Shown: piece after piece, positions 1-20,800 of the stretch | How positions within the stretch are numbered: the stretch's first letter is position 1 | How the letters are laid out: every line of letters starts with the position of its first letter | Program-made: the position numbers and the translations under genes | Notes under the pieces: model-generated | The model's input: only the letters and a program-made list of their open reading frames with translations | Databases searched by the model: none | Told to the model about the DNA's origin: nothing | IMG/VR virus record: IMGVR_UViG_3300004097_000064 | Span: 1-22,572 of that record | Length of the DNA stretch: 22,572 bases | Strand: one strand, 5' to 3' | Source of the DNA: a virus

Positions 1-864
1 TTGACACATTGCAAGTTCAACTGATAATGGCCGATGCTCAAACGGAGTGGCAACAGGTCCTTCTTCAAATTGAAAATCTGTTACACGAATTGTTCTACCA
101 CCAGCATTCAAAAAAGAAAAGTCAACTTCAACACCATTTACAGCATCTGCTGGTAAAGTTACTTGTTCTGAAAAAGAAACATATTCACCGCTTGTCAGGT
201 CAGAAGAAAAGTCTACTTTGCTTCCATAACTTACATTTGTTGATGCTGCTGAGTATACATTCGTGTTAAAAGTTACTCCTGTCGCATCATCAATATAGAC
301 CTTACCGCTGATTATGACTGTTTGATTCGCAAGTTTTCGACAGTTAACATTTTCAATTTTTTGACCAATGATTTGATTTACTGTTCCTGAATCGGGTATA
401 ACTTCAAGAGCCTTTCCTGTTGGTGTATCAACTTGTGAATACGAACATCCAGCAGCAACACAATAAACATACCATCGATCTGTTGTATAGGTAAAGGTGC
501 CTGCTATTGCTGTTCCATTTCCACGCTGATTTATCTGCATGTCACCATTGATAATCTTATTCCGAAATGATTCTAATCGTGGAGGAATTTGATTGACTGA
601 AGCTTCGACTAAATCAACAGATGAATTCAAGCTTGTGATATCTGCTTCAATAGAGTCAATTTGATTTTGAATAGGAGATAGGTCAACACCTTCAATTGTT
701 CCATCACTATGAATGACAGTGCTACCATCAGATTTCTTAAGACTTGCTCCATCTAACAGACGATAAGAACCATCTTCTTCAACAATGGATTCAAGACCTT
801 TGCGAATAGGAAGTTCTGCGCTGACAAATGAAACTGATCTTTTATTACCTACGTATCCGCTCAT
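1..864 (-). CDS. Tail fibre protein with carbohydrate-binding-type C-terminal domain (3' end beyond window)
   Basis: The frame opens at ATG 864 and stays open for 288 codons to base 1, so the stop lies outside the window. The start overlaps the stop of the upstream gene as ATGA. The N-terminus MSGYVGNKRS resembles the YIGN starts of marine phage fibres. Residues about 63-100 look like a short coiled coil (SPIQNQIDSIEADITSLNSS), a likely trimer stalk. From residue 101 the motif RNKIINGDMQINQRG, then TDRWY near 128, and finally FQFEEGPVATPFEHRPLSVE near 264-284, match the beta-sandwich domain common at the ends of phage fibres (RN.IINGAM...QRG...DRW...Q.E.G..ATPFE.R....EL..CQRYY). That domain is generally considered to bind surface glycans. 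Only the last residues after AMCQ are missing before the expected RYY motif. I infer a receptor-binding fibre; the ligand is unknown. Confidence 0.85.
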   Translation of the reverse strand, partial: MSGYVGNKRSVSFVSAELPIRKGLESIVEEDGSYRLLDGASLKKSDGSTVIHSDGTIEGVDLSPIQNQIDSIEADITSLNSSVDLVEASVNQIPPRLESFRNKIINGDMQINQRGNGTAIAGTFTYTTDRWYVYCVAAGCSYSQVDTPTGKALEVIPDSGTVNQIIGQKIENVNCRKLANQTVIISGKVYIDDATGVTFNTNVYSAASTNVSYGSKVDFSSDLTSGEYVSFSEQVTLPADAVNGVEVDFSFLNAGGRTIRVTDFQFEEGPVATPFEHRPLSVELAMCQ

Positions 865-1160
865 AATTCAAGAACCGTGAGAGTGCAATCAATTGTATTA
901 TCGGTAGAAGCATATACACGAACAACTTCATTTTCACCGATTGCGAGTTTACCATCAAGAACACCAAGTGTAGAACCTACAGGAATAGGAGCATTACGAA
1001 TGATATATGTTCCATCAATTTCAACATCAGCAGTTGCTGTTTCATTTGCTTTGTTTGCTAAGATAAGTCCGATTGCTAATCCTGTTTTGCCCGCAGGTGT
1101 TGTATAAACTGTGATACCAGATGTCGTAGCTGTCTGCGCTTGTCTTTTAAATTGAGCCAT
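861..1160 (-). CDS. Small virion-associated protein, copy 3 of a three-member paralogue family
   Basis: This 99-residue protein has no signal peptide or membrane segment. It aligns by eye along its whole length with the products at 4309-4653 and 6171-6518. Shared features are a YTTPAG/YTVPA motif near residue 18-25, IGLILANK near 30-37, a [PV]xGSTL or HSTLE segment, a GxKLxxxxND/NE motif, and a C-terminal ILEVS/VLEL strand. The pattern suggests an all-beta sandwich. Similar short proteins occur next to fibre genes in marine T4-like phages, but I know of no assigned function. The start is ATG 1160, preceded at 6-base spacing by GGGA, which lies in the last codons and stop of the upstream repeat fibre (1164-1760), so the pair is probably translationally coupled. 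The stop overlaps the next start by four bases (ATGA). Likely a structural or decoration protein working with the neighbouring fibres. Confidence 0.8.
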   Translation of the reverse strand: MAQFKRQAQTATTSGITVYTTPAGKTGLAIGLILANKANETATADVEIDGTYIIRNAPIPVGSTLGVLDGKLAIGENEVVRVYASTDNTIDCTLTVLEL

Positions 1161-1170
1161 TGATTATCCC
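1161..1170 (-). promoter_or_regulatory. Ribosome binding site formed by the last codons of the upstream gene
   Basis: The end of the repeat fibre reads TTG GGA TAA, and its GGGATAA segment lies 6 bases before ATG 1160. The terminal glycine codon and the stop therefore also make the Shine-Dalgarno for the 99-residue protein. A similar but weaker arrangement (GGT TGA TTA ATG) occurs at the junction 4654-4662. Confidence 0.55.
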
Positions 1171-1760
1171 AAAGCGATTGCAAAAATGATTGAGTTAAGT
1201 GTGTCTTCATCATCAAAGTAGAAGCCACCATTTCCATCTGTTTTCAGAACTTGTCCGTTTTGACCATCTGTAATATTTAGATCCATCAAAGTCTGAACTT
1301 CTTTTGCAGAATTGTTTGTAAAGAAAAATGTTCCATCTCCACTTGCTGTCAGAACTTGATTGGCGGTTGCCATTGAATTCAGGTCTGTCAAGCTTGACAT
1401 TGTGAGTGCGGGTGGTGAGGTGAATGTGAAAGTTCCACCACCATTTGTTGTGAGAACAGCACCATCAACACCATCAACAATACTTAGGTCAAGTAAAGTG
1501 TTGACTTCTCTTGCCGCATTGTTCGCAAAAAAGAAAGTACCATCACCATTTGCTGTCAGAACTTGGTCAGTTAAAGCTGTTGAAGACAAATCACTTAGAT
1601 TTGTTAACTTCAACAATGGTGTGACCATATTTTCAATGTCATCAGAACTTGAATTTGCGCCAAAGTCTACATCATCTAAGACTAATCTTTGATCCTCAAT
1701 TTGATAGCTTACATTGATGCGGTTTGCTAAACGAGCAAAATGTCTGGCTTTACTTGACAT
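1164..1760 (-). CDS. Short repeat-containing fibre-like protein (four repeat units)
   Basis: This 198-residue protein has an N-terminal head (residues 1-52, MSSKARHFARLANRINVSY), then four units of a beta-repeat built around [QA]VLTTNGxGTFxF (units about 53-87, 88-121, 122-156, 157-183). Units 1 and 3 resemble each other most (VLTANGDGTFFFANN and VLTASGDGTFFFTNN), as do 2 and 4, so it looks like duplication of a two-unit block with a 69-residue period. The same repeat appears ten times in the 503-residue protein at 4657-6168. The C-terminus NSIIFAIALG resembles the ends of the proteins at 4657-6168 and 13115-13384. Repeats of this kind form trimeric beta-shafts in many phage fibres; I infer a short accessory fibre. 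The Shine-Dalgarno is weak (AAAGAAAG, about 10 bases upstream). The next gene starts 3 bases after the stop. Confidence 0.8.
   Translation of the reverse strand: MSSKARHFARLANRINVSYQIEDQRLVLDDVDFGANSSSDDIENMVTPLLKLTNLSDLSSTALTDQVLTANGDGTFFFANNAAREVNTLLDLSIVDGVDGAVLTTNGGGTFTFTSPPALTMSSLTDLNSMATANQVLTASGDGTFFFTNNSAKEVQTLMDLNITDGQNGQVLKTDGNGGFYFDDEDTLNSIIFAIALG
1212..1604 (-). repeat. Four coding repeats arranged as a duplicated two-unit block
   Basis: These are residues 53-183 of the 198-residue fibre-like protein. The 16-base string ttgctgtcagaacttg occurs at 1343-1358 and 1550-1565, 207 bases (69 codons) apart, matching the two-unit period seen in the protein. The units belong to the same repeat type as those at 4726-5892. 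Confidence 0.8.
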
Positions 1761-1778
1761 GATTTTATTCTTTCTTTA

Positions 1779-2216
1779 TTATGCTGGTTCTACAGGCCAA
1801 TGTTCAAATACAAGTTCATTGTCTGAATTCAAAGTCGGTTCAGGTAATTCACCTGATTCAACTTTTTGTGGTACATTTTTAAGTTGTTTGCGATATTCAA
1901 TCCATTCGGCTTGATCTGTTCCTATATAATCGAGTAACATTCTCCAATCACTCATTGATAGAAGACGATTTCTTTCATAGCGAAGTGATTCCATTGCTGT
2001 AGGTGTTTCAATTTCGGGTAAATTTTCATCTATTTTTTCAACTATTATATCTGACACAACCCAAGAATTATTTTCAAATATACATACTTGAGTTGATCCA
2101 TCAAAAGCAGGAGGTGGTTCAGATGTTGTATCTGATGGAATTAAAAACTCACCTTCTCGTATCGGATGAGGTTGACACTGATAAGAATGTCCTGAGTGTA
2201 TGTTATAAACAATCAT
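1779..2216 (-). CDS. Tail fibre assembly chaperone (Tfa / phage tail assembly chaperone type)
   Basis: This 145-residue protein has two recognisable parts. Residues about 20-55 (EGEFLIPSDTTSEPPPAF, then VCIFENNSWVV) resemble the N-terminal strand region of Caudovirales tail fibre assembly proteins, in which a PP-rich segment precedes a W-V strand. Residues 80-116 carry YERNRLLSMSDW, W105, then YRKQLKNVPQ, the hallmark of the phage tail assembly chaperone family (RxxRNxLLxxxDW...W..YRQALRDLP). Such proteins help fold or trimerise the tip of a fibre and are usually encoded directly downstream of it. That is the case here: the collar-domain fibre ends 6 bases upstream. The start is ATG 2216 with a strong AAGGA Shine-Dalgarno. 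The remaining C-terminal tail is acidic (ESGELPEP, DNELVFEHW). I am confident of the family, and the partner is inferred from adjacency. Confidence 0.8.
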   Translation of the reverse strand: MIVYNIHSGHSYQCQPHPIREGEFLIPSDTTSEPPPAFDGSTQVCIFENNSWVVSDIIVEKIDENLPEIETPTAMESLRYERNRLLSMSDWRMLLDYIGTDQAEWIEYRKQLKNVPQKVESGELPEPTLNSDNELVFEHWPVEPA

Positions 2217-2222
2217 CTTTCC

Positions 2223-3479
2223 TTAGTATTTGATACAATATAAAACAGAAATATTTCTTGGTCTATTTTCTGAAGCAGTGTTACCATTTTCAGGATCAGT
2301 TGAATTATAATGATGTCCAAATGAACCAAATCGCCTTGAGCCACCCCAGTAGTTGTAATTATTATCAAGGGAACTTGATGTTGTATATGCCCTATGTGTG
2401 TGTGGTCCAACAGCATGGTCTTGAAAAGAACCAAATCTTCTACTACCATCAACACCACGGTTGACATCCCAACCTCTCAAAAACTCACCACGAAAATCAG
2501 GAATACGGAATGTTGTAGTATCTGAGCCAAAACCCCAAGGTAATAAATTAATTTCAACATCAGGATTTGATTCAGTAGCTTCCGCAGATAAAGTATATTC
2601 TGTTGGTGAGTTAACTGTAGAAACTGTAGTTCCTTCTGGTATACCAATACCACGTATGGATATACCACCATAAACTTGTAAGGTACTGATAAAAGAGTTT
2701 ATAGTGATTATATTTGATCCTGATACTACATTTGCTGTACCACGAATACAAAGTGCATCGTATAGCATTGGAAAATCTGTCATTTTTAAATTGTCTGAGC
2801 CGTCACAAACTAACCAACCACCAGGAGCATTTGGCATTGCAAAAGATCCAATCTGACCAGCAGGTGTTGTTCCTGCATGAACAAAATAACATTGACCAGT
2901 AGAATCAATATGAAGAACTTCTCCACCATCATGTGTTGGATTTACATCTGCCAACTCCGTTAGTTTTGTAGCATCACGATGAACACGATATCCTGGTTGA
3001 ATAATTTCAACTTCAATTCGGTCATCTTCACTAACATCTCCCTTAAAAATTATTCTTGAAAAAAGAAAATTGATTTCATAATCAACATCACGAACTAAAC
3101 GAACACCATTATAAAATACATTGAAGCGGTCTTCTGTTGAAATGCTCGAGACAAGTTCAACATAATCTAATGTTCCATCTAAAACAAAGCTTTCTTTTTT
3201 ATATGAATTTCTTGCGATGTCTGTAATCTCAATAGAACCAACACATTCAATTACATCGTTTGCTGTGGGTGTATTCACAAATGTAATATAGAAACCATTT
3301 GGATCAAGATTATAATCAACTGTTTCAACTTGTTTTAAACCGTTTTTAAAAACCATTACATTATCTTGATCGTATCGAGCATCAAAAGATTTATTGATAC
3401 CATCCGCAGTATGAGTTTTACGGTCTGCGATTTTTTCTGGACCCAGTGCTGGTGGTTGTTGAGCGCCAATAAATGGCAT
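2223..3479 (-). CDS. Tail fibre / short-tail-fibre-like protein with phage tail collar domain
   Basis: This 418-residue protein has a modular plan. Residues 1-30 (MPFIGAQQPP) are a short anchor. Residues 31-80 and 98-160 are two beta modules of the form N-G-[LV]-[KR]-x-V...DYxx...F.....DVIE (KNGLKQVETVDYNL; YNGVRLVRDVDYEI). Residues 171-202 hold one copy of the TELADVN...GEVLHIDSTG repeat. Residues 208-340 are the phage tail collar domain (GQIGSFAMPNAPGGWLVCDG ... FRIPDFRGEFLRGWD), interrupted by an insert at about 246-314. The C-terminal region has an HTH metal-type motif at 360-362 and ends ENRPRNISVLYCIKY, typical of gp12-like and side-tail-fibre tips. The start is ATG 3479 with the strong site TAGGAG. 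It sits between a small helical protein and a fibre assembly chaperone. It probably contacts the host surface; which T4 fibre it replaces cannot be decided here. Confidence 0.88.
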   Translation of the reverse strand: MPFIGAQQPPALGPEKIADRKTHTADGINKSFDARYDQDNVMVFKNGLKQVETVDYNLDPNGFYITFVNTPTANDVIECVGSIEITDIARNSYKKESFVLDGTLDYVELVSSISTEDRFNVFYNGVRLVRDVDYEINFLFSRIIFKGDVSEDDRIEVEIIQPGYRVHRDATKLTELADVNPTHDGGEVLHIDSTGQCYFVHAGTTPAGQIGSFAMPNAPGGWLVCDGSDNLKMTDFPMLYDALCIRGTANVVSGSNIITINSFISTLQVYGGISIRGIGIPEGTTVSTVNSPTEYTLSAEATESNPDVEINLLPWGFGSDTTTFRIPDFRGEFLRGWDVNRGVDGSRRFGSFQDHAVGPHTHRAYTTSSSLDNNYNYWGGSRRFGSFGHHYNSTDPENGNTASENRPRNISVLYCIKY

Positions 3480-3491
3480 GATTAGCTCCTA

Positions 3492-3761
3492 TCAAGTCTC
3501 AAGAGATTTACTAATTTCTTCATTTACTTGTTTTGCTGGCTTGACCCATCCTCGGTCAAATGCTTCAAAAACAATTTCTTCTTTTGATGCTGGTGTTGAT
3601 TCTCCAGCAGCAATAAATTTTTCAACAGCAATTTTTACAATTTCATCAATTGCTATACGACAACGATTGTGAACAGCATTTGAAACCCAAGCTTGCTGAT
3701 CTACAGCAGCATAAGAAAGAGCCATGTCTTCTGTTTCGGTAAGTTCGACTGAATATTTCAT
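3492..3761 (-). CDS. Small helical protein of unknown function, conserved-looking, between C1q-like and collar-domain genes
   Basis: This 89-residue protein looks mainly alpha-helical and charged: MKYSVELTETEDMALSYAAV, then QAWVSNAVHNRCRIAIDEIV, then EIVFEAFDRGWVKPAKQVNEE. It has no membrane segment or signal peptide. The segment VHNRCRIAIDEIVKIAVE and the overall layout resemble short proteins I recall near fibre genes of marine T4-like phages, for which no function is established. It is unlike its beta-rich neighbours, so it may be an assembly helper or adaptor rather than a fibre, but that is inference. The start ATG overlaps the upstream stop by four bases (ATGA), with GGA about 9 bases upstream inside the C1q-like gene. 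The stop is 12 bases before the collar-domain fibre start. Confidence 0.75.
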   Translation of the reverse strand: MKYSVELTETEDMALSYAAVDQQAWVSNAVHNRCRIAIDEIVKIAVEKFIAAGESTPASKEEIVFEAFDRGWVKPAKQVNEEISKSLET

Positions 3762-4312
3762 AATAGATATCCAAAAAAGTTAAATGTTCTTGAGTTTTCC
3801 CTAGGACGACCTCTATATGTTAAGTTTACTTGATCATTTTCTTCTAATTGTCCAATATAAGTTGTGCTTACAGTATCATTTCCTGCTTCAACTTTTTGTG
3901 ATAATGACTTAATCGATTTGTTGACTTCGATTGCTACCCACTGATGAATTGATGTTGTATTTTGTAGAAAGCTTCCTTCCGCATGAAAACAATAAACACC
4001 GGAAAAAGGTACGGTAAAATAACCTTGACGATGCATTGTTATTTCACCATCTTGTGGCCAATCAGATGAACTTTGATAAGGTAGATTATTTGAATCATTC
4101 CCTACAATGTTAATCAACAGATCAAAATGATTACCTTGATTCAGATATATAGACGCAACTCTACCAACTCTTCCGCTTACATGTTCTACTTGGTCATCAA
4201 GCGCAATCGTTGAATGAAAAATTGGACGATTCGGATTTGTTCCCTGAATCGGAATATTATTTTTTACGTCATTGACAATATGCTGACCAATTGTAAAATT
4301 CTTTGAAATCAT
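3758..4312 (-). CDS. C1q/TNF-like jelly-roll domain protein
   Basis: This 184-residue protein has a C-terminal half with the layout of a C1q-like domain. YFTVPFSGVYCFHAEG (98-113) matches the F.VP.SGVY.F motif, VAIEVNKSI (127-135) the central strand, IGQLEENDQVNLTY (153-166) the L..GD.V.L strand, and the last residues FNFFGYLL the F.GFLL end. In animals and some bacteria this fold forms trimeric binding heads; trimerisation would suit a fibre tip. The N-terminal half (MISKNFTIGQHIVNDV ... VSGRVGRVASI) is not recognised and may be the attachment part. The start ATG overlaps the previous stop as ATGA, as does its own stop with the next start, so the three genes from 4653 to 3492 are likely translated in a coupled way. 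The fold call is by motif only. Confidence 0.75.
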   Translation of the reverse strand: MISKNFTIGQHIVNDVKNNIPIQGTNPNRPIFHSTIALDDQVEHVSGRVGRVASIYLNQGNHFDLLINIVGNDSNNLPYQSSSDWPQDGEITMHRQGYFTVPFSGVYCFHAEGSFLQNTTSIHQWVAIEVNKSIKSLSQKVEAGNDTVSTTYIGQLEENDQVNLTYRGRPRENSRTFNFFGYLL

Positions 4313-4653
4313 GATTGCTCTACAAGACTAAGAATAGCATCAAAAGAATTTGCGATTGTTGAGGCTACTTGAATTTGGTCGCCTTCATTGAGAACCATTT
4401 TATTTCCTTGCATAATCTCAAGAGATGAACCTGAATTCACAACAACATCTTTTAGATAATGAACTGTTTGAGAAGCATCACTATCTATAACTTTGACTGA
4501 AACTGAAATCAATTCGTTATGAAGATTCGCAATTGTAAACCCAATCACAATTGTAGTATTGCTTGCTGGTACTGTATAAATGGTAGCATCTGCCGCTGGT
4601 GTGTTATAATCTACACCACCATTATATGTTTTTGATAAAAGTGTATTAGCCAT
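4309..4653 (-). CDS. Small virion-associated protein, copy 2 of a three-member paralogue family
   Basis: This 114-residue protein shares its plan with the products at 861-1160 and 6171-6518: start MANT, motif IYTVPASNTT near residue 25, VIGFTIANLHNE near 36-47, VNSGSSLEIMQGNKMVLNEG near 71-90, D-Q-I-Q-V-A-S, and a C-terminal strand ILSLVEQS. Predicted to be all-beta. The start ATG lies 3 bases after the stop of the ten-repeat fibre, whose last codons GGT TGA supply the only G-rich stretch upstream, so coupled translation is likely. The stop overlaps the C1q-like gene by four bases. It probably has the same structural role as its paralogues; no function is known to me. Confidence 0.8.
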   Translation of the reverse strand: MANTLLSKTYNGGVDYNTPAADATIYTVPASNTTIVIGFTIANLHNELISVSVKVIDSDASQTVHYLKDVVVNSGSSLEIMQGNKMVLNEGDQIQVASTIANSFDAILSLVEQS

Positions 4654-4656
4654 TAA

Positions 4657-6168
4657 TCAACCAAATATAATTGCGTTTATAAATGCGTCATCTGCCAGAA
4701 TTGCCATTTTTTCTGCGAGTTCAGCATCTGGTCTATTTTGTAATTGTGTATAATCAATTACCTTGAATTCAAATGTTCCATCATTATTTGCACTTAGATA
4801 AGTGTTCGCTGAACCATCACTAATATTTATGTCTGTTAGTGTTGCTGGAATGCTTGGTGTTCCCTCAATTAGATTATACTGTAAATTCGCAAAGAAGAAA
4901 TCACCATTTCCATTCGTTGTGAGAAACGAATTCGCAACGACGTTATTCTCAACACCAATGTCAAATAAATCTGCTGGTATAGAGGGCTTGTTTAGAATGT
5001 CAGCATACTCAACTGTTCCTCCCATTGGACGAAACTCAAACGTCCCATCACCATTTGCTGTCAATACAAGACCATCTGTTCCATCTGCAATTCCTAATTC
5101 AAGAATTGAGCTTGGAATTGTTGAACTGAATGAGAAGTTCCCTGAACCATCTGTTGTTAATACCGTGTTTGCTGAACCATCCGAAATCGAAAGGTCAGTT
5201 AATGCGGATGGAATGAATGGTTGGTGAATAACGTTGTTGTAATCGATAGTATTAAATATAAAGTTTCCTTCACCATCAGTTGTCAACACATTATTCGCAG
5301 AAGCATCCGCTATTCCTAGGTCAGTGAGTTCTTGAGGTATAGGTCTTGATGTGAAACTGAAGTTACCTCCACCATCTGTGACAAGCACAGCATTTGGTGA
5401 TCCGTCAGCAATTCCTAGGTCAGTGAGTCTTTGAGGAATTGGACGAACTGTGAATGTGAAGTTACCCGAACCATCCGTGACTAAAACTGAATTTGCTGGG
5501 CCATCATCAATTCCTAAGTTGAGAATTGATTGAGGAATTGGCTGAAAAGAAAATCCTCCAGAGCCATTTGTTGTCAGCACATCATTCGCATTTCCATCTG
5601 ACACACCAAGGTCTGTCAGCACAGTTGGAATAAAAGGAGTGTTATTCAGATGAGCATAGTCAATCGTGCTGAATGTGAAGGTGCCATTTGCATCTGTCGA
5701 GAGATATGTGTTTGCGGCGTCCCCGTCTGAGATGTCGTCCAGAGCCGTCAGAACTGTCGGTATCGGTGGTTTATTTGTGAGACTATCATAATCTACTGCA
5801 GAAAAGAAAATACCGCCATTTGTGTTTGAGGTGAGATATTCTCCTGTTGCGGTTGCGTCTGAGATTCCCAGGTCTGTCAATGTGCTGGGAATGAACATTC
5901 CGCTCAGATATGTATCAATCTCTTTTGTGATGAATCTTTGATTGTCATCATCATAGACAAAGATATCTCCATCAAGAAGTGTTTTGGTGACGGCAAAACG
6001 GACCGTTGTGTTGTCTTTGATGACTTCAGCAGAGGTTACATCTCCTTGACCAATGAGACCAGCATCAATGGCAGCATTACTGAAAGAGACATTTTTGAAT
6101 GTTTCTCCTGTGTATCTTTCTGCTAATCTCTTTGTAACTTCTGCCAGAGATATAATTTTACTGGGCAT
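4657..6168 (-). CDS. Fibre protein built of ten tandem beta-repeats
   Basis: This 503-residue protein has an N-terminal region (1-92, MPSKIISLAEVTKRLAERYT) followed by ten repeats between residues 93 and 481, each opening IPxxLTDLGIxDG and closing VLTTDGxGNFxF. Short units are 31-33 residues. Longer ones (42-46) add a linker of the type IDYxxLxNxPx. The C-terminus ADDAFINAIIFG resembles the ends of the proteins at 1164-1760 and 13115-13384. Such repeats are known from marine phage fibres and probably fold as a trimeric beta-shaft; no enzymatic motif is visible. The stop lies 3 bases before the next start. It sits between two copies of the small paralogue family (6171-6518 upstream, 4309-4653 downstream). 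Part of the 5' third is locally much richer in G+C than its surroundings. Confidence 0.85.
   Translation of the reverse strand: MPSKIISLAEVTKRLAERYTGETFKNVSFSNAAIDAGLIGQGDVTSAEVIKDNTTVRFAVTKTLLDGDIFVYDDDNQRFITKEIDTYLSGMFIPSTLTDLGISDATATGEYLTSNTNGGIFFSAVDYDSLTNKPPIPTVLTALDDISDGDAANTYLSTDANGTFTFSTIDYAHLNNTPFIPTVLTDLGVSDGNANDVLTTNGSGGFSFQPIPQSILNLGIDDGPANSVLVTDGSGNFTFTVRPIPQRLTDLGIADGSPNAVLVTDGGGNFSFTSRPIPQELTDLGIADASANNVLTTDGEGNFIFNTIDYNNVIHQPFIPSALTDLSISDGSANTVLTTDGSGNFSFSSTIPSSILELGIADGTDGLVLTANGDGTFEFRPMGGTVEYADILNKPSIPADLFDIGVENNVVANSFLTTNGNGDFFFANLQYNLIEGTPSIPATLTDINISDGSANTYLSANNDGTFEFKVIDYTQLQNRPDAELAEKMAILADDAFINAIIFG
4726..5892 (-). repeat. Ten tandem coding repeats (IPxxLTDLGIxDG...VLTTDGxGNFxF)
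   Basis: These are residues 93-481 of the 503-residue fibre. The repeats are also visible in the DNA: the 18-base string attcctaggtcagtgagt occurs at 5312-5329 and again at 5411-5428, exactly 99 bases (33 codons) apart, showing that some copies diverged recently or are kept alike by recombination. Unit length alternates between about 99 bases and about 130-138 bases, the longer ones carrying an added IDYxxLxNxP linker. Confidence 0.85.
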
Positions 6169-6170
6169 TG

Positions 6171-6518
6171 TTAGCTACTGACTTCTAGAATACTTAATGA
6201 AACGTCTAAACTGGTTGAAGAATCACATGAAACAAGAATTGAATCATTTGGTTGAAGAACAAGTTTTTGTCCAGAAAACATTTCAAGTGTACTGTGATCT
6301 GGAATTGGAATTGCATTCAACAGAGTAACATTTTCATTCACTTCATTATCTGTCGTTGCTGAATTTAAAAGAACCGTTGTTTCAATCGGTCCTGAAACTT
6401 TATTTGCTAAGATTAAACCAAGAACAATAGCAGAATCAATTGTTGCTGGAACAGTGTAAAGAGTTTCTGCTGTTGCTGAAACATCAGCTTTTGTTTTGAG
6501 CTTGAATGTATTTGCCAT
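6171..6518 (-). CDS. Small virion-associated protein, copy 1 of a three-member paralogue family
   Basis: This 115-residue protein starts MANTFKLKTK, with LYTVPATIDS near residue 20-29, IVLGLILANK at 31-40, a central IPIPDHSTLEMFSGQKLVLQ near 71-90, and the C-terminal strand SLSILEVSS. Its closest match by eye is the 99-residue product at 861-1160 (shared IGLILANK-type and IPxPxxSTL segments), then the product at 4309-4653. It looks all-beta and soluble. No Shine-Dalgarno stands out before ATG 6518, and the preceding gene ends only 6 bases upstream, so re-initiation is plausible. Two bases separate its stop from the ten-repeat fibre start. Likely a structural partner of the adjacent fibre; function unproven. 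Confidence 0.8.
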   Translation of the reverse strand: MANTFKLKTKADVSATAETLYTVPATIDSAIVLGLILANKVSGPIETTVLLNSATTDNEVNENVTLLNAIPIPDHSTLEMFSGQKLVLQPNDSILVSCDSSTSLDVSLSILEVSS

Positions 6519-6524
6519 AATTTG

Positions 6525-7625
6525 TTATAAACGGTTGATTGACATTTGACTTCTTTGATAGAACTTACCAAGATATTCACAATAAATTTTATCACCTACA
6601 TTAAGGTCTTCACAGAAATAAGTTTTATTTTGTTCTGAATCATTGACAAAGATCCAACCTTGATTATATGTTGTGATTGCGCTGGTAATTGAGTTCTGTG
6701 TGCATAAACGGAATTCTGCTCCACCCACTGTAGCAGGAGCAAGCATTGCTAGATCCACACGATATGTTCCAGCAAGAGGCACAACATACAAAAATAGAAC
6801 AGGATCAAAACCATTCAAGTTATCAACTTCAATTTTATCAAATGGAAAATATAACCAAGAAGATGTAGTATTGTCAAATGTTTCATCATCATCATAACCA
6901 CCAATAGCGGTACAATACACACTGTTTGTGTTTGTTGTAAGCACTGAAGTTACAACTGAAGTTGATGTAATTGTGGATGCTGAAATAGGTGCACTGAATT
7001 CAATTTCACCAGAAGAGTTAATATAAATTGATTCAGAACCAATATGAATATTGTTACTTAGATATAGATTCTTAAATGTATTTGTGAGTGAACCTAAATC
7101 ATAAGTTGCTGTAATGTCAGGAACTAAATTACCAGAAACAGTTCCTTTAATTTGAAAAGTATCAGGCGTTTTCGCAATCCATTCTGTATTTGCAGCATCA
7201 TAAACAAGATAATCATCATTCACAGCAGAAGCTACATTTACATTCGCAACTTCATCCAAATATAAAGTAATCTTATTGTTAGCTGATGAAATATCTTTGT
7301 TTTCAAGAACTTGAGATTCTGTATGATATGTATGAACATTGAAAGATAGATTGACACCATCACCCAATTTACCATATACATTGTCCATCTTCGTCATTAG
7401 CATATCTGTATTTGCTACATAAGATGCTAAATTTTGAGAAACATCAAGAATTTGAGAAAGAGTGGTTCCAGACGCAAAGTTAATAGTTAGCCCATTCCCC
7501 AAAGCATTATAAATTTCATCAAACATATGATTGATTTTTTCACCACCATCACGGATTGTATCTCCGTTGCTGTCATTAGGAGCCGATCCGATGTTTATAA
7601 CATGTTTTCCTGGTGTTAATGCCAT
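6525..7625 (-). CDS. Fibre-like protein: shortened relative of the 1815-residue fibre with a C1q/TNF-like end
   Basis: This is a 366-residue protein. Residues 11-42 (NIGSAPNDSNGDTIRDGGEK, then INHMFDEIYNAL) match the N-terminus of the 1815-residue protein encoded immediately upstream. Residues 163-214 carry a copy of the fibre module also seen three times there: SGNLVPD..ATYDLGS..NTFKNLYLS, ending EIEFSAPIS (compare QIKFSAPLA in the large protein). The C-terminal 90 residues contain VVPLAGTYRVDLAMLAP (281-297) and LNVGDKIYCEY (341-351), the spacing expected of a C1q/TNF-like jelly roll, although the match is weaker than for the 184-residue protein. I infer a short fibre sharing the attachment end of the large fibre but bearing a different head. 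ATG 7625 has no strong Shine-Dalgarno. Confidence 0.78.
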   Translation of the reverse strand: MALTPGKHVINIGSAPNDSNGDTIRDGGEKINHMFDEIYNALGNGLTINFASGTTLSQILDVSQNLASYVANTDMLMTKMDNVYGKLGDGVNLSFNVHTYHTESQVLENKDISSANNKITLYLDEVANVNVASAVNDDYLVYDAANTEWIAKTPDTFQIKGTVSGNLVPDITATYDLGSLTNTFKNLYLSNNIHIGSESIYINSSGEIEFSAPISASTITSTSVVTSVLTTNTNSVYCTAIGGYDDDETFDNTTSSWLYFPFDKIEVDNLNGFDPVLFLYVVPLAGTYRVDLAMLAPATVGGAEFRLCTQNSITSAITTYNQGWIFVNDSEQNKTYFCEDLNVGDKIYCEYLGKFYQRSQMSINRL

Positions 7626-7639
7626 TTGTTACTTATTGA

Positions 7640-10600
7640 TTAGAAGTTAAAGTCTAGAGTTAATCTTCCCCATTTATTATTTGCTACAGCAATATAAACC
7701 GTATCTCCATCAATCACCATATCTCCCATTGTTCCAGGTGCTGTATTTGAAGTAGGAACACTCATACCAGATTGGATCTTCAATGCCTTTATCAACTCAT
7801 TTTGAATTCCAGTCACTGATTGAGCAGTTGAATTGGCTAGATTTTGAGTAGTTGAGATTGAATTACTTAACTGATTTGCTGTATTCGCAATTGTAGCATT
7901 GAGTTGATTTGATGTATCTATCAATGCTGTATTAATACTTGTGACTGCAGGATCTTCTGATTTCTTATAAGTCTCGAACCAAGCATCATCAGAATGATAA
8001 TATATTAAGGCAGCATCTGCTCCAGAACCTATTTGAGTATTTGCTGTAGTAAAGAGATTCACATAGGTATTTGCAAACGCATAGACCGCATATGGTTTTT
8101 CAGTTGATGACCAATTATAATATTCATCATTCGAATTACCCACTTTATATGTGTAAATTCCAGGCTGCGCTAAAAGTGAAATCTTCAACTTGATACATTT
8201 TGACATATCTGCGATGAAGGTTTCTGGATTACGAACTTTGAAAGTTACATTACCAAAAGCATCAACTACAATACCTTCTGTTCGGTCCCCTGCTTTATGA
8301 AGAACGGCGCCTGTAACTTCAAATTCATATTTGTCTTTTGTAAGATGTTTATATTCTTTGAAAGGTTTATTTTGATCAATTCCAGTTTGAGAGTCATATA
8401 AACGAGCAGTAAGAACATAACGGTCATCAAAATCAACAATAGGTGTTCCAAGTTTTTTGAAAGGATATTTATTCAGGTCAATTGAAGCCATTCCCTCAAG
8501 AACCATCCATTTTTCAACTCGTTCATGACGAATTGATGCATCATACTTATGCGTTACCGCTTTTTCATAAGATACTCTTTGAGCAGTATAATATTGCAAA
8601 TGCGGCATTGGAATTACTGTTGTTCCAGCACCTAAAGTATCAACTTCTAATCTACCCGATCCATAGAACATGTTTTGCCAAAATACTTTTTCATGATGTG
8701 AATTTGAGTTTAGTTGATGATCACTCCATGGCATTTCTGATAGAAACTCATAATCACAAGCAAACTTCAAGTTATATGAAGACTTATTCGGTAAATCATG
8801 TTGAACTAAAACTTGATGATATAAATTATTATATGTGTAGAGCATATGATTTGAAAGAGGACGAGAACGAGATGTTCTTTCTAATACCGATCCTTGGTTA
8901 AAGCCATCTGTAAAACGGAATTCAGTTAAAAATCCAGGTGAATTATAAGCAGATTGTCCATCTGAATCTTTAACTAAATTATATGAGTCCGTTTGATTCT
9001 CCATCGCATATAAGCGATAGTAGAATGTATCATTGCCCTCCTTTTCAATTGAATGAATTATTATAAGTGGCTTAGAATCAGCAGCATCCCACTTCCAATT
9101 AGCCCCAGCAAATGTTGGAGTATAAGCAGTGTTTAGATTTGTTTGCTCAAAGTTTAAACTGTCTGTAAATGCCACACCATTAATCACAAATTTTTGTAAA
9201 GCGTTTCCTAGGGTGAAACCAAAAATTGGTGTTGTATTTGCATCACCAGAAGCAAGTTCATATTTCGATGAACCACTGACTATTTGATCTAATTCATCAC
9301 TTGCTTCAGTAAATTTCCAGCTGCTATCAATATAACTCTTGACCCAATTATTTTCAACTTCTGAAGGAACTATGTCCAATGTTACATACTCATTTACTGA
9401 ACCATCATTACGATAAGCAGTATATTTCACATTGTATGGAGTATTACCCCAGTATTTGAATAAATTTGTGGTTGATGTAGTTTCTAATATAGGAGGAACA
9501 CCAGGGGTTACACGAATCAAATAGTCACTTACTTGTTCTGAAATATGAGTTGATTTTGGATTCCAGAATTTATATGTAAGTTTAAATAATCCGTCTTGAT
9601 TTGATTGTACTCCTAAGTCTCTCAATGTAATATCGAGCATTTGACTAGAAGTATCTCCTCCAGAAGCATCTGCTGTTTTGGTTGAAGAACCACTCAATTC
9701 AGCATTTGGTTCAACAGACCAACCTGGATGAGCAACAGGTGATGATACTTCTAATATAGGAAATTCTTTATGAACTGTAACTTGCTGTTTCAAGTCGCAG
9801 AATAAACTATAGTTATAATTATCATTCCATGGTTTGTCACGTGCTGCCCAAGAATCATCATAACCATCTCCGCTTACAAGAGGAGTGTCATGTTCATTAT
9901 CGTCATCGCCAGGATGTCCACAGTAGAGAGTGATTTTATTACCAATCTTACCGCTCCAATCTGTATTCCCTACAGACCATTGAGGAAAATAAGAATTTTT
10001 ATTGTCAGGAATCATTTTTGAAATGCTTTCAACTGTTGCGACTGTAAGAGAGCCACCTTTTGTTGAAAGTTTTGTTCCACCAATATTCAAAGAATCAGCA
10101 CTAATATACAAATCACGGAAACGATTTTCAGGACTTCCTAAATCATAAGCTATATTTTGTGTAGGAATAAAATGACCATCAATATAGGTCGGTGAACCTT
10201 CCTTACCAAGAGTTTTATTTTCAAGATTTTGTTCACCTTCTGCTGTAAGAACATCACCTTTCTTTGTTGGGTCAAATTTAGTGATTGAGAGTTCAAGAGA
10301 AGCTTTCTTTGGATCAAACCATAGATGAGGTCTTCTCGCCAAATATCCTTGTTTATAATTATTATAAATGTCAGGATTTAATAAACTCAAGCAACGGCTG
10401 TTTACAACTACAAAAGTATTTGAACCAACTTGGTCGGGATAATTAGCAGAAACACTTTTTGTGGCATCAAAAACTGATCCTGCTGGTTTCAGATTATATT
10501 CAACACGGTCTTGACGATTGATTGTCAATGTAAGACTAAGTTCTTTACTTTGGTCTTCATAAGCTTTTTTTACAAAGTCTATGGCTTTGCTATCAGAACG

Positions 10601-13087
10601 AGTACCTTTGATTAATTTGATTCGGTTTTTACTTGTGAATTGAAAATAATTTGAATGTTCTACTGGCTTGTCTTTTGTAAGTGGATGATAAACATTTACA
10701 AGAGCTTCTTCACTCTGACTTATTTTGTAATATTCAACCCAAACTGCTGACCTTGTAACACCACCATCATCAACCCAAGTACCATTATTATTTTCTGCAC
10801 GAATAAGTTTGAGATAATCTGAGTATTGTTTACCATCAACTTTTGAACCATCTGATTTTAATAATTGGTTATATACCCAGAAGTTACCTGTTCTCTTATT
10901 CGCTGTATCTAAGCCCTCTGTGAAAAAATCTCCACCAGAATAAATTTCTCTGTCAATATTATCTTTAAATCCACTGCGTCTTGGTACTTCAAGAATTTCT
11001 CCAGTGTCAGGCCTTCGCATATACAATATTGGTTGATGTTGAGCATTTATTTCAAAATAGCCTTCATCACTAGGGTCTAAACCATCAAGTACATCTGGCC
11101 ATCCATGCGTAAACTGTACGATACTTATTTCTGGATCTGAAGAGTTTTGAAATTGATAATGTTCTTCTGGACGAAAATGATTCATACTGTCGATTTCTGC
11201 TATAAGCCGATTTGGTCCATCAGATAGTTTAACTTTTAAAGTAGCATAATAACCTTTACGAAGACCAATATAGCGATGCTCAGGATTTCTTAGATTCGCC
11301 TCAACAACACCGTTAATACGATTACCGGGTTGTTTTACAAATTCAATTTCATCGTGAGAAGCAATTACAGCCTCACTTGTCGCAGAAAGAAGTCGATCAG
11401 CTACTACATCAATTTCATTATGTAGAGTAGTTGGTCCTTGAGCAACATTAATTTTTAAGTTAATATCATATTCAGGTTCAATAGTTGTTTTCATGTTGAG
11501 AACATCAACAATGACTCCTGGTAAATCATCATTGAATGTAAGTTGTCTTGGGTGAGTGCTTACAAATTTATCTGTTGTGAAATAAACTTCGGTGTTTGCT
11601 TCAAAGGGAGCGAGAGGTGCGCTAAATTTAATTTGACCATTCTCATCTGAAATCTTTTGTGTTCCAAAATGAATTGAACTTCCACTAATATAAAGGTCTC
11701 GGAATCTTTTTGAAGGTGAACCCAAATCATAAACAACATCAGTATCTGGAATTAAAGATCCTGTAATTATATTATCTGTTGCTACTTGTTTGATTTCAAA
11801 AGCGAAACTTGTTCCTGTGCTATAGTCAGTAGCAGCATCACCAATCAATCTAATTGTTTTATAACCAGTAATTTGAAACCCTGAAATACCTGGTTCTGTT
11901 TTTCGATGATCTGGTACTGGACCATAAGTTACAACCTCACCAGTAGGTTTTGTAATTTTTACTTGTGATTCAATACCAGGTTGAAATCCAGGGTAATTGT
12001 CAATGAAGTTTGTGGCTGTATCTTCAGCATCTGTGAAAAGAGATGTGTCCAAACCGGGTAGATGTTCTTTACTCACACCTGCTATGTCTGATGTTTCGTA
12101 TGAACCTAAAGGGTCAAAATGCCAATTTCCATTTGCTGTTCCGATTGGAGTTTCTGAATACGAGAACAAGTTAATATCACTTGTATCAACAACAACATCA
12201 CTTTCTTCTAATTCTTCTGCTGAAACTTCAGGTTCTGCTGGAACAAATTCTTTTGTAATTGTAAGAACAACTTGAGAGGCATTTGCTATTTCTTCAGCAA
12301 CACCATCAACTAAAGGTTCACGGTTATAAACTGTCAATGTACCATACGAACCAAAAGACATTAAATCTTCAGCAAATTTATTTGTATCTTTTGGAGGATT
12401 GCTAATATAATCATGGTCACTTTTAAGTGTAGAGAATGTTTTTGCTACGCCATTTGAAACATAACTAAGTGTGAACTTTACACCTTCCAAAGGTTGTACA
12501 GGATTTCTTGTGTTGATATTCAATCCTGGGAAAGAACGCTCTGTCATATCACTAAAAGGATTGACTACATCAGGTAAAGTTCCTACAGCAGTCACTGAGA
12601 TACTATTCGCATAAACACCATTACCCATGACATGTGGATTGATTACACAATCATAAACACCTAAGACATTCTTTTGCTCAATACCATTTGGTCCAGCAGA
12701 GATAGATATGTTACCAAGATGTAATGTGTTATTCGAAAGGTATAGATCACGAAAGCGATGTGTTGAAGAACCCAAATCCCAAGTGACATTTGCGTCAGGA
12801 ACTAAGTGACCTGTTACACGACCATCAACTTCATGAGTGACAGGCACCCATTTTACACCGTTGAACTGAAGATACTGTTCATTTGTTGGCGCATTTGTTG
12901 TGAGGTCAACATCAACTAGTGAATCTAAGTCCATGGAACTGGCATCAAAGGTGATGGTTGTACCGTCAGTACTTAACGCATTATAAATCTCATTAAAGTT
13001 GTCATTGATTTTTTGACCACCCAACCGTAAGGTATCACCAGTATTATCGTTAGCGGCTACTCCGAGACCTAATGTTTGTTTTGGCAT
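7640..13087 (-). CDS. Very large modular tail fibre (1815 residues)
   Basis: This is the longest gene in the window. Residues 9-40 (LGVAANDNTGDTLRLGGQK, then INDNFNEIYNAL) are a fibre N-terminus typical of marine T4-like phages. Three copies of a 40-50-residue module with the core YDLGSxxxRFRDLYxS lie near residues 90-130, 440-492 and 965-1015; they probably mark joints between larger blocks. The blocks between (about 140-435, 500-960 and 1020-1700) are beta-rich, lack a family I recognise, and may be Ig-like or receptor-binding. Residues about 1705-1770 are heptad-like with many N, Q, S and T (TSNQLNATIANTANQLSNSI), a likely coiled coil. The end, PGTMGDMVIDGDTVYIAVAN then KWGRLTL, matches the small C-terminal domain of many phage fibres (PG..GD......Y..V....W.R). 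No strong ribosome site precedes ATG 13087. Probably the long or side tail fibre that contributes to host choice. Confidence 0.85.
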   Translation of the reverse strand: MPKQTLGLGVAANDNTGDTLRLGGQKINDNFNEIYNALSTDGTTITFDASSMDLDSLVDVDLTTNAPTNEQYLQFNGVKWVPVTHEVDGRVTGHLVPDANVTWDLGSSTHRFRDLYLSNNTLHLGNISISAGPNGIEQKNVLGVYDCVINPHVMGNGVYANSISVTAVGTLPDVVNPFSDMTERSFPGLNINTRNPVQPLEGVKFTLSYVSNGVAKTFSTLKSDHDYISNPPKDTNKFAEDLMSFGSYGTLTVYNREPLVDGVAEEIANASQVVLTITKEFVPAEPEVSAEELEESDVVVDTSDINLFSYSETPIGTANGNWHFDPLGSYETSDIAGVSKEHLPGLDTSLFTDAEDTATNFIDNYPGFQPGIESQVKITKPTGEVVTYGPVPDHRKTEPGISGFQITGYKTIRLIGDAATDYSTGTSFAFEIKQVATDNIITGSLIPDTDVVYDLGSPSKRFRDLYISGSSIHFGTQKISDENGQIKFSAPLAPFEANTEVYFTTDKFVSTHPRQLTFNDDLPGVIVDVLNMKTTIEPEYDINLKINVAQGPTTLHNEIDVVADRLLSATSEAVIASHDEIEFVKQPGNRINGVVEANLRNPEHRYIGLRKGYYATLKVKLSDGPNRLIAEIDSMNHFRPEEHYQFQNSSDPEISIVQFTHGWPDVLDGLDPSDEGYFEINAQHQPILYMRRPDTGEILEVPRRSGFKDNIDREIYSGGDFFTEGLDTANKRTGNFWVYNQLLKSDGSKVDGKQYSDYLKLIRAENNNGTWVDDGGVTRSAVWVEYYKISQSEEALVNVYHPLTKDKPVEHSNYFQFTSKNRIKLIKGTRSDSKAIDFVKKAYEDQSKELSLTLTINRQDRVEYNLKPAGSVFDATKSVSANYPDQVGSNTFVVVNSRCLSLLNPDIYNNYKQGYLARRPHLWFDPKKASLELSITKFDPTKKGDVLTAEGEQNLENKTLGKEGSPTYIDGHFIPTQNIAYDLGSPENRFRDLYISADSLNIGGTKLSTKGGSLTVATVESISKMIPDNKNSYFPQWSVGNTDWSGKIGNKITLYCGHPGDDDNEHDTPLVSGDGYDDSWAARDKPWNDNYNYSLFCDLKQQVTVHKEFPILEVSSPVAHPGWSVEPNAELSGSSTKTADASGGDTSSQMLDITLRDLGVQSNQDGLFKLTYKFWNPKSTHISEQVSDYLIRVTPGVPPILETTSTTNLFKYWGNTPYNVKYTAYRNDGSVNEYVTLDIVPSEVENNWVKSYIDSSWKFTEASDELDQIVSGSSKYELASGDANTTPIFGFTLGNALQKFVINGVAFTDSLNFEQTNLNTAYTPTFAGANWKWDAADSKPLIIIHSIEKEGNDTFYYRLYAMENQTDSYNLVKDSDGQSAYNSPGFLTEFRFTDGFNQGSVLERTSRSRPLSNHMLYTYNNLYHQVLVQHDLPNKSSYNLKFACDYEFLSEMPWSDHQLNSNSHHEKVFWQNMFYGSGRLEVDTLGAGTTVIPMPHLQYYTAQRVSYEKAVTHKYDASIRHERVEKWMVLEGMASIDLNKYPFKKLGTPIVDFDDRYVLTARLYDSQTGIDQNKPFKEYKHLTKDKYEFEVTGAVLHKAGDRTEGIVVDAFGNVTFKVRNPETFIADMSKCIKLKISLLAQPGIYTYKVGNSNDEYYNWSSTEKPYAVYAFANTYVNLFTTANTQIGSGADAALIYYHSDDAWFETYKKSEDPAVTSINTALIDTSNQLNATIANTANQLSNSISTTQNLANSTAQSVTGIQNELIKALKIQSGMSVPTSNTAPGTMGDMVIDGDTVYIAVANNKWGRLTLDFNF

Positions 13088-13114: not shown

Positions 13115-13384
13115 TTATCCAAGAGCAATAGCTAAGGCTGTTGCGTCTTGTGATGCTGTTCCTGTTAATTTATTTGATAGAGAACTTAAATCAACTGTTA
13201 TTTGATTACCTGTTACTGTTTCAAGAGTCAATTTATTTGTATTTACATCAAAAGAAGCTTGATCAATAAAAATGTCTTGAGTATCAGTAATTCCTTTAAT
13301 CTGAGTTTCATTCGGTATTTCAATGACACCATTGTTTGCTTTGAAAACTGTGATACCTGCTAAGTTGAGAACACCTCCAGCCAC
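13115..13384 (-). CDS. Small structural-type protein, GTG start
   Basis: This 89-residue protein starts at GTG 13384 (VAGGVLNLAGITVFKANNGV read with M) behind a weak AGAGAG site 5 bases upstream; no in-frame ATG gives a better start. The segment FDVNTNKLTLETVTGNQITV followed by DLSSL is a motif I associate with phage fibre and virion proteins (LxTNxLTLxxxxGxxVxVDLSSL). The NLAGI near its N-terminus faintly recalls the NLxGxP of the next two micro-genes. It ends SQDATALAIALG, sharing the AIALG tail with the protein at 1164-1760. Probably a small virion component or fibre-attachment piece; the function is not known. Confidence 0.7.
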   Translation of the reverse strand: MAGGVLNLAGITVFKANNGVIEIPNETQIKGITDTQDIFIDQASFDVNTNKLTLETVTGNQITVDLSSLSNKLTGTASQDATALAIALG

Positions 13385-13404: not shown

Positions 13405-13647
13405 TTATGTGGTAAATTTGATATCTTCAGCATCAATGTCGATATCAGCTAAACGAGTTCCGTCAGCAGCAAAATCTGCTGCTACAATATTTTTTATATT
13501 GTATAAAATAACCATTAACTGATTATCATCCGGATCAACTTCAACTGAAACGTAAGGAGTTAAACCATCAACACTTCGAAGAGAATTTATACGAAGTTCT
13601 TTTATTCTTTGAATGGGCATTCCGCCCAAGTTATAAATCTGTGGCAT
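13405..13647 (-). CDS. Small protein, second of two tandem MPQI paralogues
   Basis: This is an 80-residue protein. Its start MPQIYNLGGMPIQRIKELRI matches the preceding micro-gene product (MPQIFNLDGKPTSTISELRV), and both contain a later [TV]xLxN[VI][RK][DN]I strand and end in TT. This copy is longer by about 15 residues, mostly from an acidic insertion near the end (DGTRLADIDIDAEDI). The start codon overlaps the upstream stop as TAATG with no Shine-Dalgarno nearby, so it probably relies on translational coupling. No known family was recognised. Its position among fibre genes suggests a virion or assembly role. Confidence 0.72.
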   Translation of the reverse strand: MPQIYNLGGMPIQRIKELRINSLRSVDGLTPYVSVEVDPDDNQLMVILYNIKNIVAADFAADGTRLADIDIDAEDIKFTT

Positions 13648-13844
13648 TATGTAGTTACGATGTTATTTGCAGAAATTTGTTTACCACCTTTTGTAAAAAT
13701 ATCACGAACATTGTGAAGAGTAACACTTTGATCGCTATTTACTGTCATGATATCAATTGTGGCACTTTGATCTTTAATAACATCAACACGAAGTTCTGAA
13801 ATTGTCGATGTTGGTTTTCCATCAAGATTGAAAATCTGTGGCAT
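13647..13844 (-). CDS. Small protein, first of two tandem MPQI paralogues
   Basis: This 65-residue protein opens MPQIFNLDGKPTSTISELRV and contains VTLHNVRDIF near residue 41-50. It is homologous by eye to the next gene product. AGAGGA just before ATG 13844 lies within the end of the 107-residue gene, and the two genes overlap by one base (TAATG). The composition is soluble and beta-leaning, with no cysteines. The function is not recognised. Tandem duplication followed by length divergence is the simplest origin. Confidence 0.72.
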   Translation of the reverse strand: MPQIFNLDGKPTSTISELRVDVIKDQSATIDIMTVNSDQSVTLHNVRDIFTKGGKQISANNIVTT

Positions 13845-17841: not shown

Positions 17842-20800
17842 TTAAGATTTTGTTTTACGAACTCTTTTTTTAGGGAGTTGAGACTTTAGTTCATTAATTT
17901 GTTCTTGCTGTTGCTTAACTGCCTCAACTAATAAGGCTACTACTTTGCTATATTTAACACCCTCTACTTTATCAGGAGAAGATGAAGAAACTAAGAAAGG
18001 TGTGACCTTCATCACTTCTTCAGCAATCAGTCCGTATTCTCTATCTGGTTTTGATTTATCTTTCCAGTTAAATTCAACACCATTTAGTTTTGTAACTTTA
18101 TCAAGAGCAGAATCAATAGGCTTTATATTTTCTTTAAGTGCTATTGATGAAGTTTCAGTAATGGATCCAGCAAAGACTGAACCTTGAACACCTAAACCAC
18201 CCGCTACAACTAAAGCACCGGAACTGGTTCCTGTAGATTTTGTTGTGCTTGTCACATCTAATTGACCAGAAACTTTCAAGTTAGGTAAACCAGCTAGTAA
18301 TTCGGTTCTTTGAACAGCATCAATTTGTGTTACACCAAGTTTTCTTCCTTGCTTAACTACAACTACACATGTTTGTCCATCGCTGCGATTTGATCCAAAA
18401 TCAAGTACATTCGTAACATTAGGAGAGGCGCCTGAACTCGTTAAATCGTAGTCTGCTTTTGTTACACGAAGACCGTTAATATATACATCTATTTCTTGTC
18501 TTTGCCATGCAGTTAGACAATTCATAAAAGTAAATGAATCTCCATAAGTAGGTCCAGTTGCCTGCTGAACAAATTCTGATTCAGTTGTTGTTAAAGATTG
18601 CCAAGCTGATTCATCTGCATTCCACATTTCAAGACTATCTGCTAATGCTGGAGCGGTGGGATTTCCGGAGGAATCAAATGTTGTGATTTGAACACTAGCT
18701 TCAGCATAACGAAGCATTCCTTTTTTTGGATCATGAGGACGATTTGTCGTGACATCACCAACAGGTATTTTTAAATAACCAGTTGAATTAATATCTAAAC
18801 CATCAGGATTTATCTGAAGTTCAGAAACTCCTGTAATTTTTGTTCCGGAATAGTCTCTTACACCATCAACATTTATACTGAAAAGACCAGGTCTTAAATC
18901 ATTTGAATCGATCGAAATTACACCTTCATTTCCAACGGCGTCTATTTTATGGAAAGATTTGATTATTGTATTACTTGATGATGCTCGCATTACTGTATTG
19001 CTTTGAGCATAATGATATATTGTATTATCATCATCACCAGTTTTGATTTCAGTATCTTGATCTAAATCAATTACACCACCAAGACCTCTCCAGGTACCTT
19101 GTGTGAATCCTTCAAAGAGTTGAACACCTGGGTTATAACGAATAAGACCGTCAGAACCGCCACCAGCAAGAGCATCTGCTGGTAGAAGAAGACCATTTTT
19201 AGTTCCTCTAAAGTCAGCAATACTTCCATCCAAAGTCATTACAGGATTGTGATTCTTTGTAACTTTGAATGCTCTTGGATTTTCAAAGGTAGCTTCTTTA
19301 GTATCAGTAGTTAATTCAAATGCACTAAGACTTCGATCTTTTGCTGAAGAAACTTCAATTCTACCGACATGATCATTAGTTACTGTAGTCGATTGATAAC
19401 TGTACACACCTGCTGTAAGAGGTGTAAAAATGACGTTTGCATTTACAGGTGATAAGGTAGCATAGTCTAACGCAAAGGATGCGTAATCTTTATAAATTTC
19501 ACCGTCAATTTCATATGTAACACCATCCATATAATCTAACGGGACGGCAGGGACTGTATTGGAAGCTACCCAAAATGCTTCAGTCATACCATTTGTAAGC
19601 TTGAGTGTAGAACCGGCATCCATTTTAAAGACATCAGACTCTACACCAGCAAATTTTAAAGTTGTTGCTGAACTTGGAGTAATCTCTTTTTCAAAATAAA
19701 GACCCATTGGATATGTTGTTTCAATCTCACCACCCATACCCGTATTATTCGCACTTACTTGAATCTCACCACCAAAATTATTTTTTGTTGGAAGTACTCC
19801 TACATGATTATTTGCTGTGTTCCAGTAATAAAAGTTAAATGTATCTGCAAAAGTAAGGTCGGTTGGATTGAAAATTACATTTGCCATCGATCCACTAGTG
19901 GCCGCTGCAGCGCTCACTGCTGATTCATAGTTAACTTTGTCAGTATAAGTGTTTACTAAACCCGCACCAGCATCATAAACTTCATATGTAACAGCACCAG
20001 CCATAGGATGACCATCAATCAATACATATTCATCATTTGCTCGATACTCAGAATGTCCAGCAACTGTCTCCAACCAGTTAAAAGGTTTTGTCGAAATGTA
20101 AACAGGGCTTTTGTCAGCACTGGTAAACAAATCAATTGTAAGCTTAACTGTATCACCAAGAACTACTTTATAATCATAATTTGACAGGTTATTTCTCGAA
20201 CTATCTGCTACCCCATCAATTAGAATATCTGAAGAAAACTGCCTTGATGATGTAGTAGTAGTTTGACCCTCATAGGAAACAGCAGGAATTGAACCAGCCC
20301 AGAGATAATAAGATGTTTCTTGATCTGGTTTAAAAGTAATTTTTACTTTGTCTGTGCTATTGATTGGAGTCTCTAAGAAAGCAGTTTTATAAGCTTCGTA
20401 TGATTCATAAAAAGTTGAACCAATTTGATAAGTGATTACTGAATTTGCTGTACTGTCATAATTACCAGGATTTGGCTGAAGAACATTCCCTTCCCTTCCA
20501 GCACCCGCAGATGTACCAATTGCAAAAGGTACCGCATTTGAGATTGGTTCTGTAGAAACAAACGAATACTCAACTATAAGAGCATCTTTTGTATTGATAT
20601 TGATATTTCGTACTTCTTGATCAGCTAATTGTAATTCTGTATTGTAGAAATGTTTTTCTGAAAGTGTAGAACTTCCCATAGCACCAATTGTAGCATCTAT
20701 AGGTCTATCAAAATAGAAATTTCTTCTTTGACCGGCAATATTGAGTTTTAGTACTAAGTTATTATCAGAACCGCTTGTATCATAAGGAAAACGATTACCA

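Follow-up and report, generated by a model that had tools for sequence, protein, structure and literature searches.

A small protein family encoded behind phage tail fibres, predicted to form a jelly roll, and its association with a shared C-terminal fibre tag

The virus record IMGVR_UViG_3300004097_000064 of IMG/VR (22,572 bases in full, here called the window) carries a run of tail-fibre genes on the minus strand. Within this run lie three genes for small proteins, which we call A (6171..6518, 115 residues), B (4309..4653, 114 residues), and C (861..1160, 99 residues), and the genes of two fibres built from repeats, one with ten copies (4657..6168, 503 residues) and one with four (1164..1760, 198 residues), all five on the minus strand. 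We found that the feature common to the fibres that partner this small family is not the repeat but a C-terminal tag of the upstream fibre. On balance, we think that the small protein is probably a virion jelly-roll adaptor that docks on this tag and joins the fibre to the next one.

Results

Homologs of the small proteins were found by tblastn in phages of SAR11, SAR116, roseobacters, OM43, and cyanobacteria, as well as in phages of Rhizobium, Ochrobactrum, Delftia, Yersinia, and Streptomyces. The small gene lies directly behind a fibre gene in most loci. Beyond the close relatives of the window, the bodies of these fibres are unrelated and range from about 50 to 1,300 residues; the products of the upstream genes, very different in length and sequence, nevertheless share an end peptide of about nine residues, mostly ATALAIALG. 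Variants of this tag were NPLIIALG, TPFILALGD, or TPYILALGGGD in T4-like cyanophages, LIWAIVMG in Delftia phage phiW-14, LSMAIALG in Yersinia phage GN1, and AMA[IV]AL, without the glycine, in HMO-2011 and HTVC100P. When loci were seeded with the small gene, the tag was present in 44 of 54 non-redundant upstream products with unrelated bodies, compared to 11 of 787 control open reading frames (ORFs). Seven of these 11 are true tags, mostly from loci that had been seeded with the tag.

The initial annotation had instead proposed that the small protein is a partner of the LTDLGI-type repeat shaft, capping such fibres specifically. Repeat fibres and small genes do lie side by side in the window and its close relatives, in agreement with this. 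However, fibres with this repeat adjoin a small gene only in these close relatives, and most homologs of the small gene adjoin fibres that lack the repeat, the partner being any fibre. Repeat-specific capping was rejected by this neighbour analysis, and we consider a specific repeat-shaft partner extremely improbable. A search for related loci seeded with the ten-repeat fibre found no relative.

We then reversed the search and used the tag alone as a seed, in the form of a degenerate DNA pattern with which IMG/VR was scanned. At least 119 ORF ends were recovered, and those with at least 330 nucleotides behind the ORF end were taken as testable. Among the matches listed, a small-family gene came directly next in 96 of 100 testable cases and, after removal of redundancy, in 42 of 46 (versus 9 of 1,193 control ORFs). 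Of the four exceptions among the matches listed, two have one intervening gene and then the small gene, and a third has the same intervening gene followed by the contig end. In contigs of bacterial and archaeal genomes, the small gene came next behind all six testable tagged genes. With MAIALG plus stop as a second seed, it came next in 90 of 115 cases (74 of 92 non-redundant).

Two kinds of interruption were observed at this junction. In loci L132 (785-1234), L150 (6972-7421), and L204 (2-343), the gene of a 149-residue protein (MANSATVNITATLLPD / MADDASVTVQATVLPD) is inserted after the tagged fibre and ahead of the small gene. In HTVC100P (L225, 3089-5327), a gene annotated as endonuclease VII separates a tagged fibre ending in SIAMAVAL from the small gene; it resembles a homing-type insertion within the joint.

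The second codon positions of the tag are almost fixed while the third positions are free, which indicates that the tag is conserved as a peptide; a DNA-level signal behind it was rejected for the same reason. Furthermore, in pairs with unrelated fibre bodies, the similarity of the tags was correlated with the similarity of the small proteins (rho 0.60-0.62), and none of 2,000 permutations reached a value as high. These findings bear on the idea that the tag is a trimerising or stabilising C-terminal helix that the small protein does not touch, the two genes being merely co-inherited. In favour of such a helix, the tag is modelled as one and adjoins the small gene on the DNA, and some tagged fibres have no adjoining small gene. 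Against it, the tag alone predicts the small gene, at the frequency given above among the matches listed and behind unrelated bodies, and tag variants match small-protein variants. We regard a tag that acts only as a helix as highly unlikely, and physical contact between tag and small protein as very probable.

A, B, and C are true paralogs, as had been annotated, and their coordinates, lengths, and order relative to the repeat fibres had also been given correctly. With A as the query, B (E 1e-10) and C (E 5e-9) were recovered within the same record. The three proteins share 36-37% pairwise identity, and all match phrog_1276 and phrog_26609, respectively with E values of 8.5e-10 and 2.4e-9 (A), 1.7e-8 and 7.4e-13 (B), and 1.9e-6 and 7.1e-7 (C). 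No function is given for these two PHROGs, and the tag partner is not included in them. Outside the window, A shares 44% identity with gp65 of HTVC115P. The pairing of a fibre with a small gene proved to be a real unit, and the small family a fibre partner, as first proposed. The order A, ten-repeat fibre, B ... four-repeat fibre, C recurs in the IMG/VR contigs 3300048010_000598 (L094) and 3300023119_000408 (L016) with short gaps of 3-9 nucleotides; 3300028844_007041 (L095) has the same layout without an intact C, and L014 has the half made of A, a repeat fibre, and B. In L095, a 60-kb contig, the C gene (11352-11490) carries an internal deletion and a frameshift, while its tag and the downstream fibre are intact; this damage is either a true loss or an assembly fault.

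The proposal that the paired unit arose by duplication is possible, since one clade of all nine A, B, and C sequences was not rejected (approximately unbiased test, p-AU 0.63). Yet A, B, and C each fell into a well-supported clade with their own counterparts from L094 and L016, so that any such duplication would predate the divergence of these contigs.

The predicted structure of the small protein is a single jelly roll. We modelled neighbouring genes with AlphaFold as read-through chains, a single-chain proxy across the stop codons by which no biological read-through is claimed. In locus L115, tag, small protein, and downstream N-terminal motif form a natural in-frame stretch, and its model (101 alignment rows) shows the small domain as a beta sandwich with block-mean predicted local distance difference test (pLDDT) values of 89-98 and one loop at 76. 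In the corresponding model of the four-repeat fibre and C from the window, C is a jelly roll (pLDDT 91-98) and the tag a helix (residues 185-196, pLDDT about 73-75), modelled with higher confidence than most preceding repeats. For the L115 model, VIA-align returned the trimeric cement protein of Helicobacter phage KHP40 (Z 9.3), the HFTV1 turret and the Ena spore appendages (Z 8.9 each), C1q-family chains (Z 7.6-8.5, level with many other jelly rolls), and, over 101 residues, residues 476-587 of the long tail fibre of Agrobacterium phage 7-7-1 (Z 7.8). Because so many jelly rolls tie, the fold alone shows no function. The family profile had no credible match among PDB sequences (best E 1.1), and C1q of Pfam matched none of A, B, and C. 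DUF7873 (E 0.017) and the Eas hydrophobin (E 0.003) failed the Pfam cut-offs for the small proteins and were discarded. Versions of 214 residues, with an extra stretch before the last strands, occur in L102 (10543-11187), L142 (3438-4082), and L215 (1143-1787).

Presence of a family member in the virion is supported in one phage. The homolog in Synechococcus phage S-SCSM1, ORF27 (QFG06283.1), is encoded between two tail-fibre genes and labelled "virion protein". The virion proteome of this phage was measured by mass spectrometry, with 45 proteins reported (PMC9602691), and we counted about 48 such labels in its record; the label of ORF27 thus very probably reflects detection.

This label also counts against a fibre chaperone. 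In that explanation, the small protein would hold the tag during trimerisation of the fibre and might or might not remain on the virion afterwards, and the motif at the N terminus of the next gene product would be unrelated to it. The models for this are Tfa, T4 gp38, and Pam3 gp25, which act at distal fibre ends. A place directly behind the fibre gene, as in the 96 of 100 tagged fibres among the matches listed, is typical of chaperones, and Pam3 gp25 is described as a 3:3 partner of the distal fibre part with a beta-sandwich domain (PMC9608196). However, no Pfam chaperone family (Tfa, Phage_tail_APC, DUF4376) matched A, B, or C, the window already has a separate gene with a Pfam match to Phage_tail_APC (1779-2216), and the small protein is predicted to be a single jelly roll, without a helical domain like the one described for gp25. 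A chaperone is unlikely in our view, although it is the strongest of the competing explanations.

A cap or collar-like role of the small family, as first annotated, is possible. As a terminal cap or tip adhesin, the small protein would be the distal knob of the fibre and contact the host surface. In the solved long tail fibre of 7-7-1, the end is indeed formed by a triple jelly roll that is covalently part of the fibre (residues 473-587; PMC12796354), the one retrieved with Z 7.8. On the other hand, conservation is far stronger in the small protein than in the fibre bodies, and the family is common to phages of SAR11, cyanobacteria, OM43, Rhizobium, and Yersinia, which is unlike a host-specific adhesin. 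The next gene, moreover, commonly opens with a shared Y-[IL]-G motif. These observations leave a terminal adhesin somewhat less likely still than a chaperone.

This motif is the second conserved peptide of the locus. Of 61 non-redundant genes that directly follow a small gene, 45 encode an N terminus of the form M-x-Y-[IL]-G or a close variant. Among 787 controls, 36 do so, and many of these 36 are fibre genes further along the same operon. In the window, C is followed by a fibre that begins with MSGYVGNK (1..864, minus strand, cut at the window end; phrog_4492 tail fiber protein, E 2.5e-29), while A and B precede other N termini. Only the C joint is thus canonical on both sides.

The adaptor that we favour would work as follows. 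The small protein, folded as one jelly roll and probably trimeric like the fibre that carries it, would grip the last nine or so residues of the upstream fibre (the ALAIALG tag) and close that end, giving a likely 3:3 stoichiometry of small protein to fibre. Its opposite face would most likely hold the next fibre or receptor-binding protein by the N-terminal M-x-Y-[IL]-G peptide and so link the two. The tagged fibres of HTVC100P, and the fibre gene preceding the tagged ORF of HTVC010P, presumably start like the T7 tail-fibre anchor, which would place the tag on the distal fibre end. Both joints being short conserved peptides in this proposal, the fibre bodies could be exchanged with the joint untouched.

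In the window, the joints would be formed by C with the four-repeat fibre, whose C terminus is the tag NSIIFAIALG (1167..1196, minus strand), and by B with the ten-repeat fibre, which ends in DAFINAIIFG (4660..4689, minus strand; FIN[AS]IIFG is kept in L014 and L094). B and C each lie 3 nucleotides behind their fibre gene. A lies 2 nucleotides ahead of the ten-repeat gene, and the fibre-like protein of 366 residues directly upstream of it (6525..7625, minus strand) is untagged. The third tag of the window is the canonical DATALAIALG at the end of an 89-residue protein (13115..13384, minus strand) that has no adjoining small gene, and A would probably serve this tag, across one or two large fibres: two fibre genes, for products of 1815 and 366 residues, lie between them in the window and likewise in L014, and one in L094. 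Tags and small genes stand at 3:3 in the window and also in L094.

Several observations weigh against the adaptor. Some tagged fibres of T4-like marine phages adjoin a neck gene instead of the small gene, small genes of Saftant and DSL-LC04 have no tagged neighbour, and neither does a sub-branch of the family in L131, L148, L151, and L196. The tag helix reached only modest confidence in the read-through models (pLDDT about 60-75). The Y-[IL]-G motif is also found on other fibre genes further downstream and may thus be a general fibre N terminus. Linked inheritance over the short gap between tag and small gene, finally, contributes to their co-variation.

Among the 25 exceptions to the MAIALG seed, the next protein resembles a T4-like neck protein in many, and in Melnitz a tagged fibre of 71 residues directly precedes the annotated neck gene. 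Tagged fibres upstream of a neck-like gene, with no adjoining small gene, were also seen in L310, L255, L344, L375 (4723-4938), and others. Such fibres may have an adaptor in common or dock on a different protein.

Discussion

The shared tag at the end of varied fibres, in this marine phage as in many unrelated phages, suggests a plug-and-socket joint by which phages could exchange the fibres that catch their bacterial hosts. A wider reading is that of a peptide docking code widespread among marine phages, in which C-tagged trimeric fibre, universal jelly-roll adaptor, and Y-[IL]-G fibre follow each other. Fibre segments would then be interchangeable among podo-, myo-, and siphoviruses that infect SAR11, cyanobacteria, OM43, roseobacters, and other hosts. 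We put this forward tentatively, at slightly less than an even chance.

Connectors and chaperones of fibres are already known, as are branched receptor-binding systems. In T4, the long-tail-fibre connectors gp35 and gp11 are separate small proteins that link fibre segments, and the proposed joining protein, small and separate as well, is likened to them by role only. In branched receptor-binding systems of Klebsiella phages, the anchor has a T4 gp10-like domain, and the second protein carries a conserved peptide at its N terminus (PMC6872550). Like these, the system described here has modular fibres, a short conserved N-terminal peptide, and an anchor fibre that is encoded first. Whereas a domain of the anchor protein provides the socket there, the socket proposed here is a separate small jelly roll that receives a C-terminal tag. 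No T4 gp10-like domain was found by Pfam in ten window proteins scanned; the published detection relied on HHpred.

The pair gp24/gp25 of Pam3 (PMC9608196) is similar in that a small protein encoded behind a fibre sits at its distal end at 3:3, the stoichiometry that we propose here. It differs in the extra helical domain of gp25 and in that the part of the report considered makes no mention of a shared tag. In the 7-7-1 long tail fibre (PDB 9RKV), a triple jelly roll ends a trimeric beta-helical fibre (PMC12796354). Unlike the small protein, this jelly roll is a covalent part of the fibre, and its sequence is not matched by the family profile.

In the literature searched, we found neither a separate jelly-roll family that is recognised via a common C-terminal tag nor the string ALAIALG; the latter result does not imply absence elsewhere.

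Phages that infect SAR11 and marine cyanobacteria rank with the most abundant of all viruses, and most of their fibres have no annotation. Nine residues long and predictive of the partner gene, the tag offers a handle for annotating fibre segments; it lets them be ordered from anchor to tip and shows which parts are swapped between phages. A family with no assigned function thereby becomes a testable structural joint, one that would explain the same tail on unrelated fibres.

Other features of the window

The two repeat fibres share their repeat type, as initially annotated: a hidden Markov model of the repeat (IPxxLTDLGI...VLTTDGxGNFxF) counted 10 and 4 copies. Directly downstream of B, with a 4-nucleotide overlap, a C1q-domain protein is encoded (3758..4312, minus strand; Pfam C1q, E 6.6e-7). 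The 1815-residue fibre (7640-13087) has three copies of a GxLVPDxxxxxDLGSxxxRFRDLYxSxxxxxxG segment. Further along, 13405-13647 and 13647-13844 encode adjacent small paralogs starting with MPQI[YF]NL[GD]G, which L014 has too, and two large fibres (15831-17825 and 17842-21432) have C termini that resemble S74-type intramolecular chaperones (LKENI...EYGLIAEEV...).

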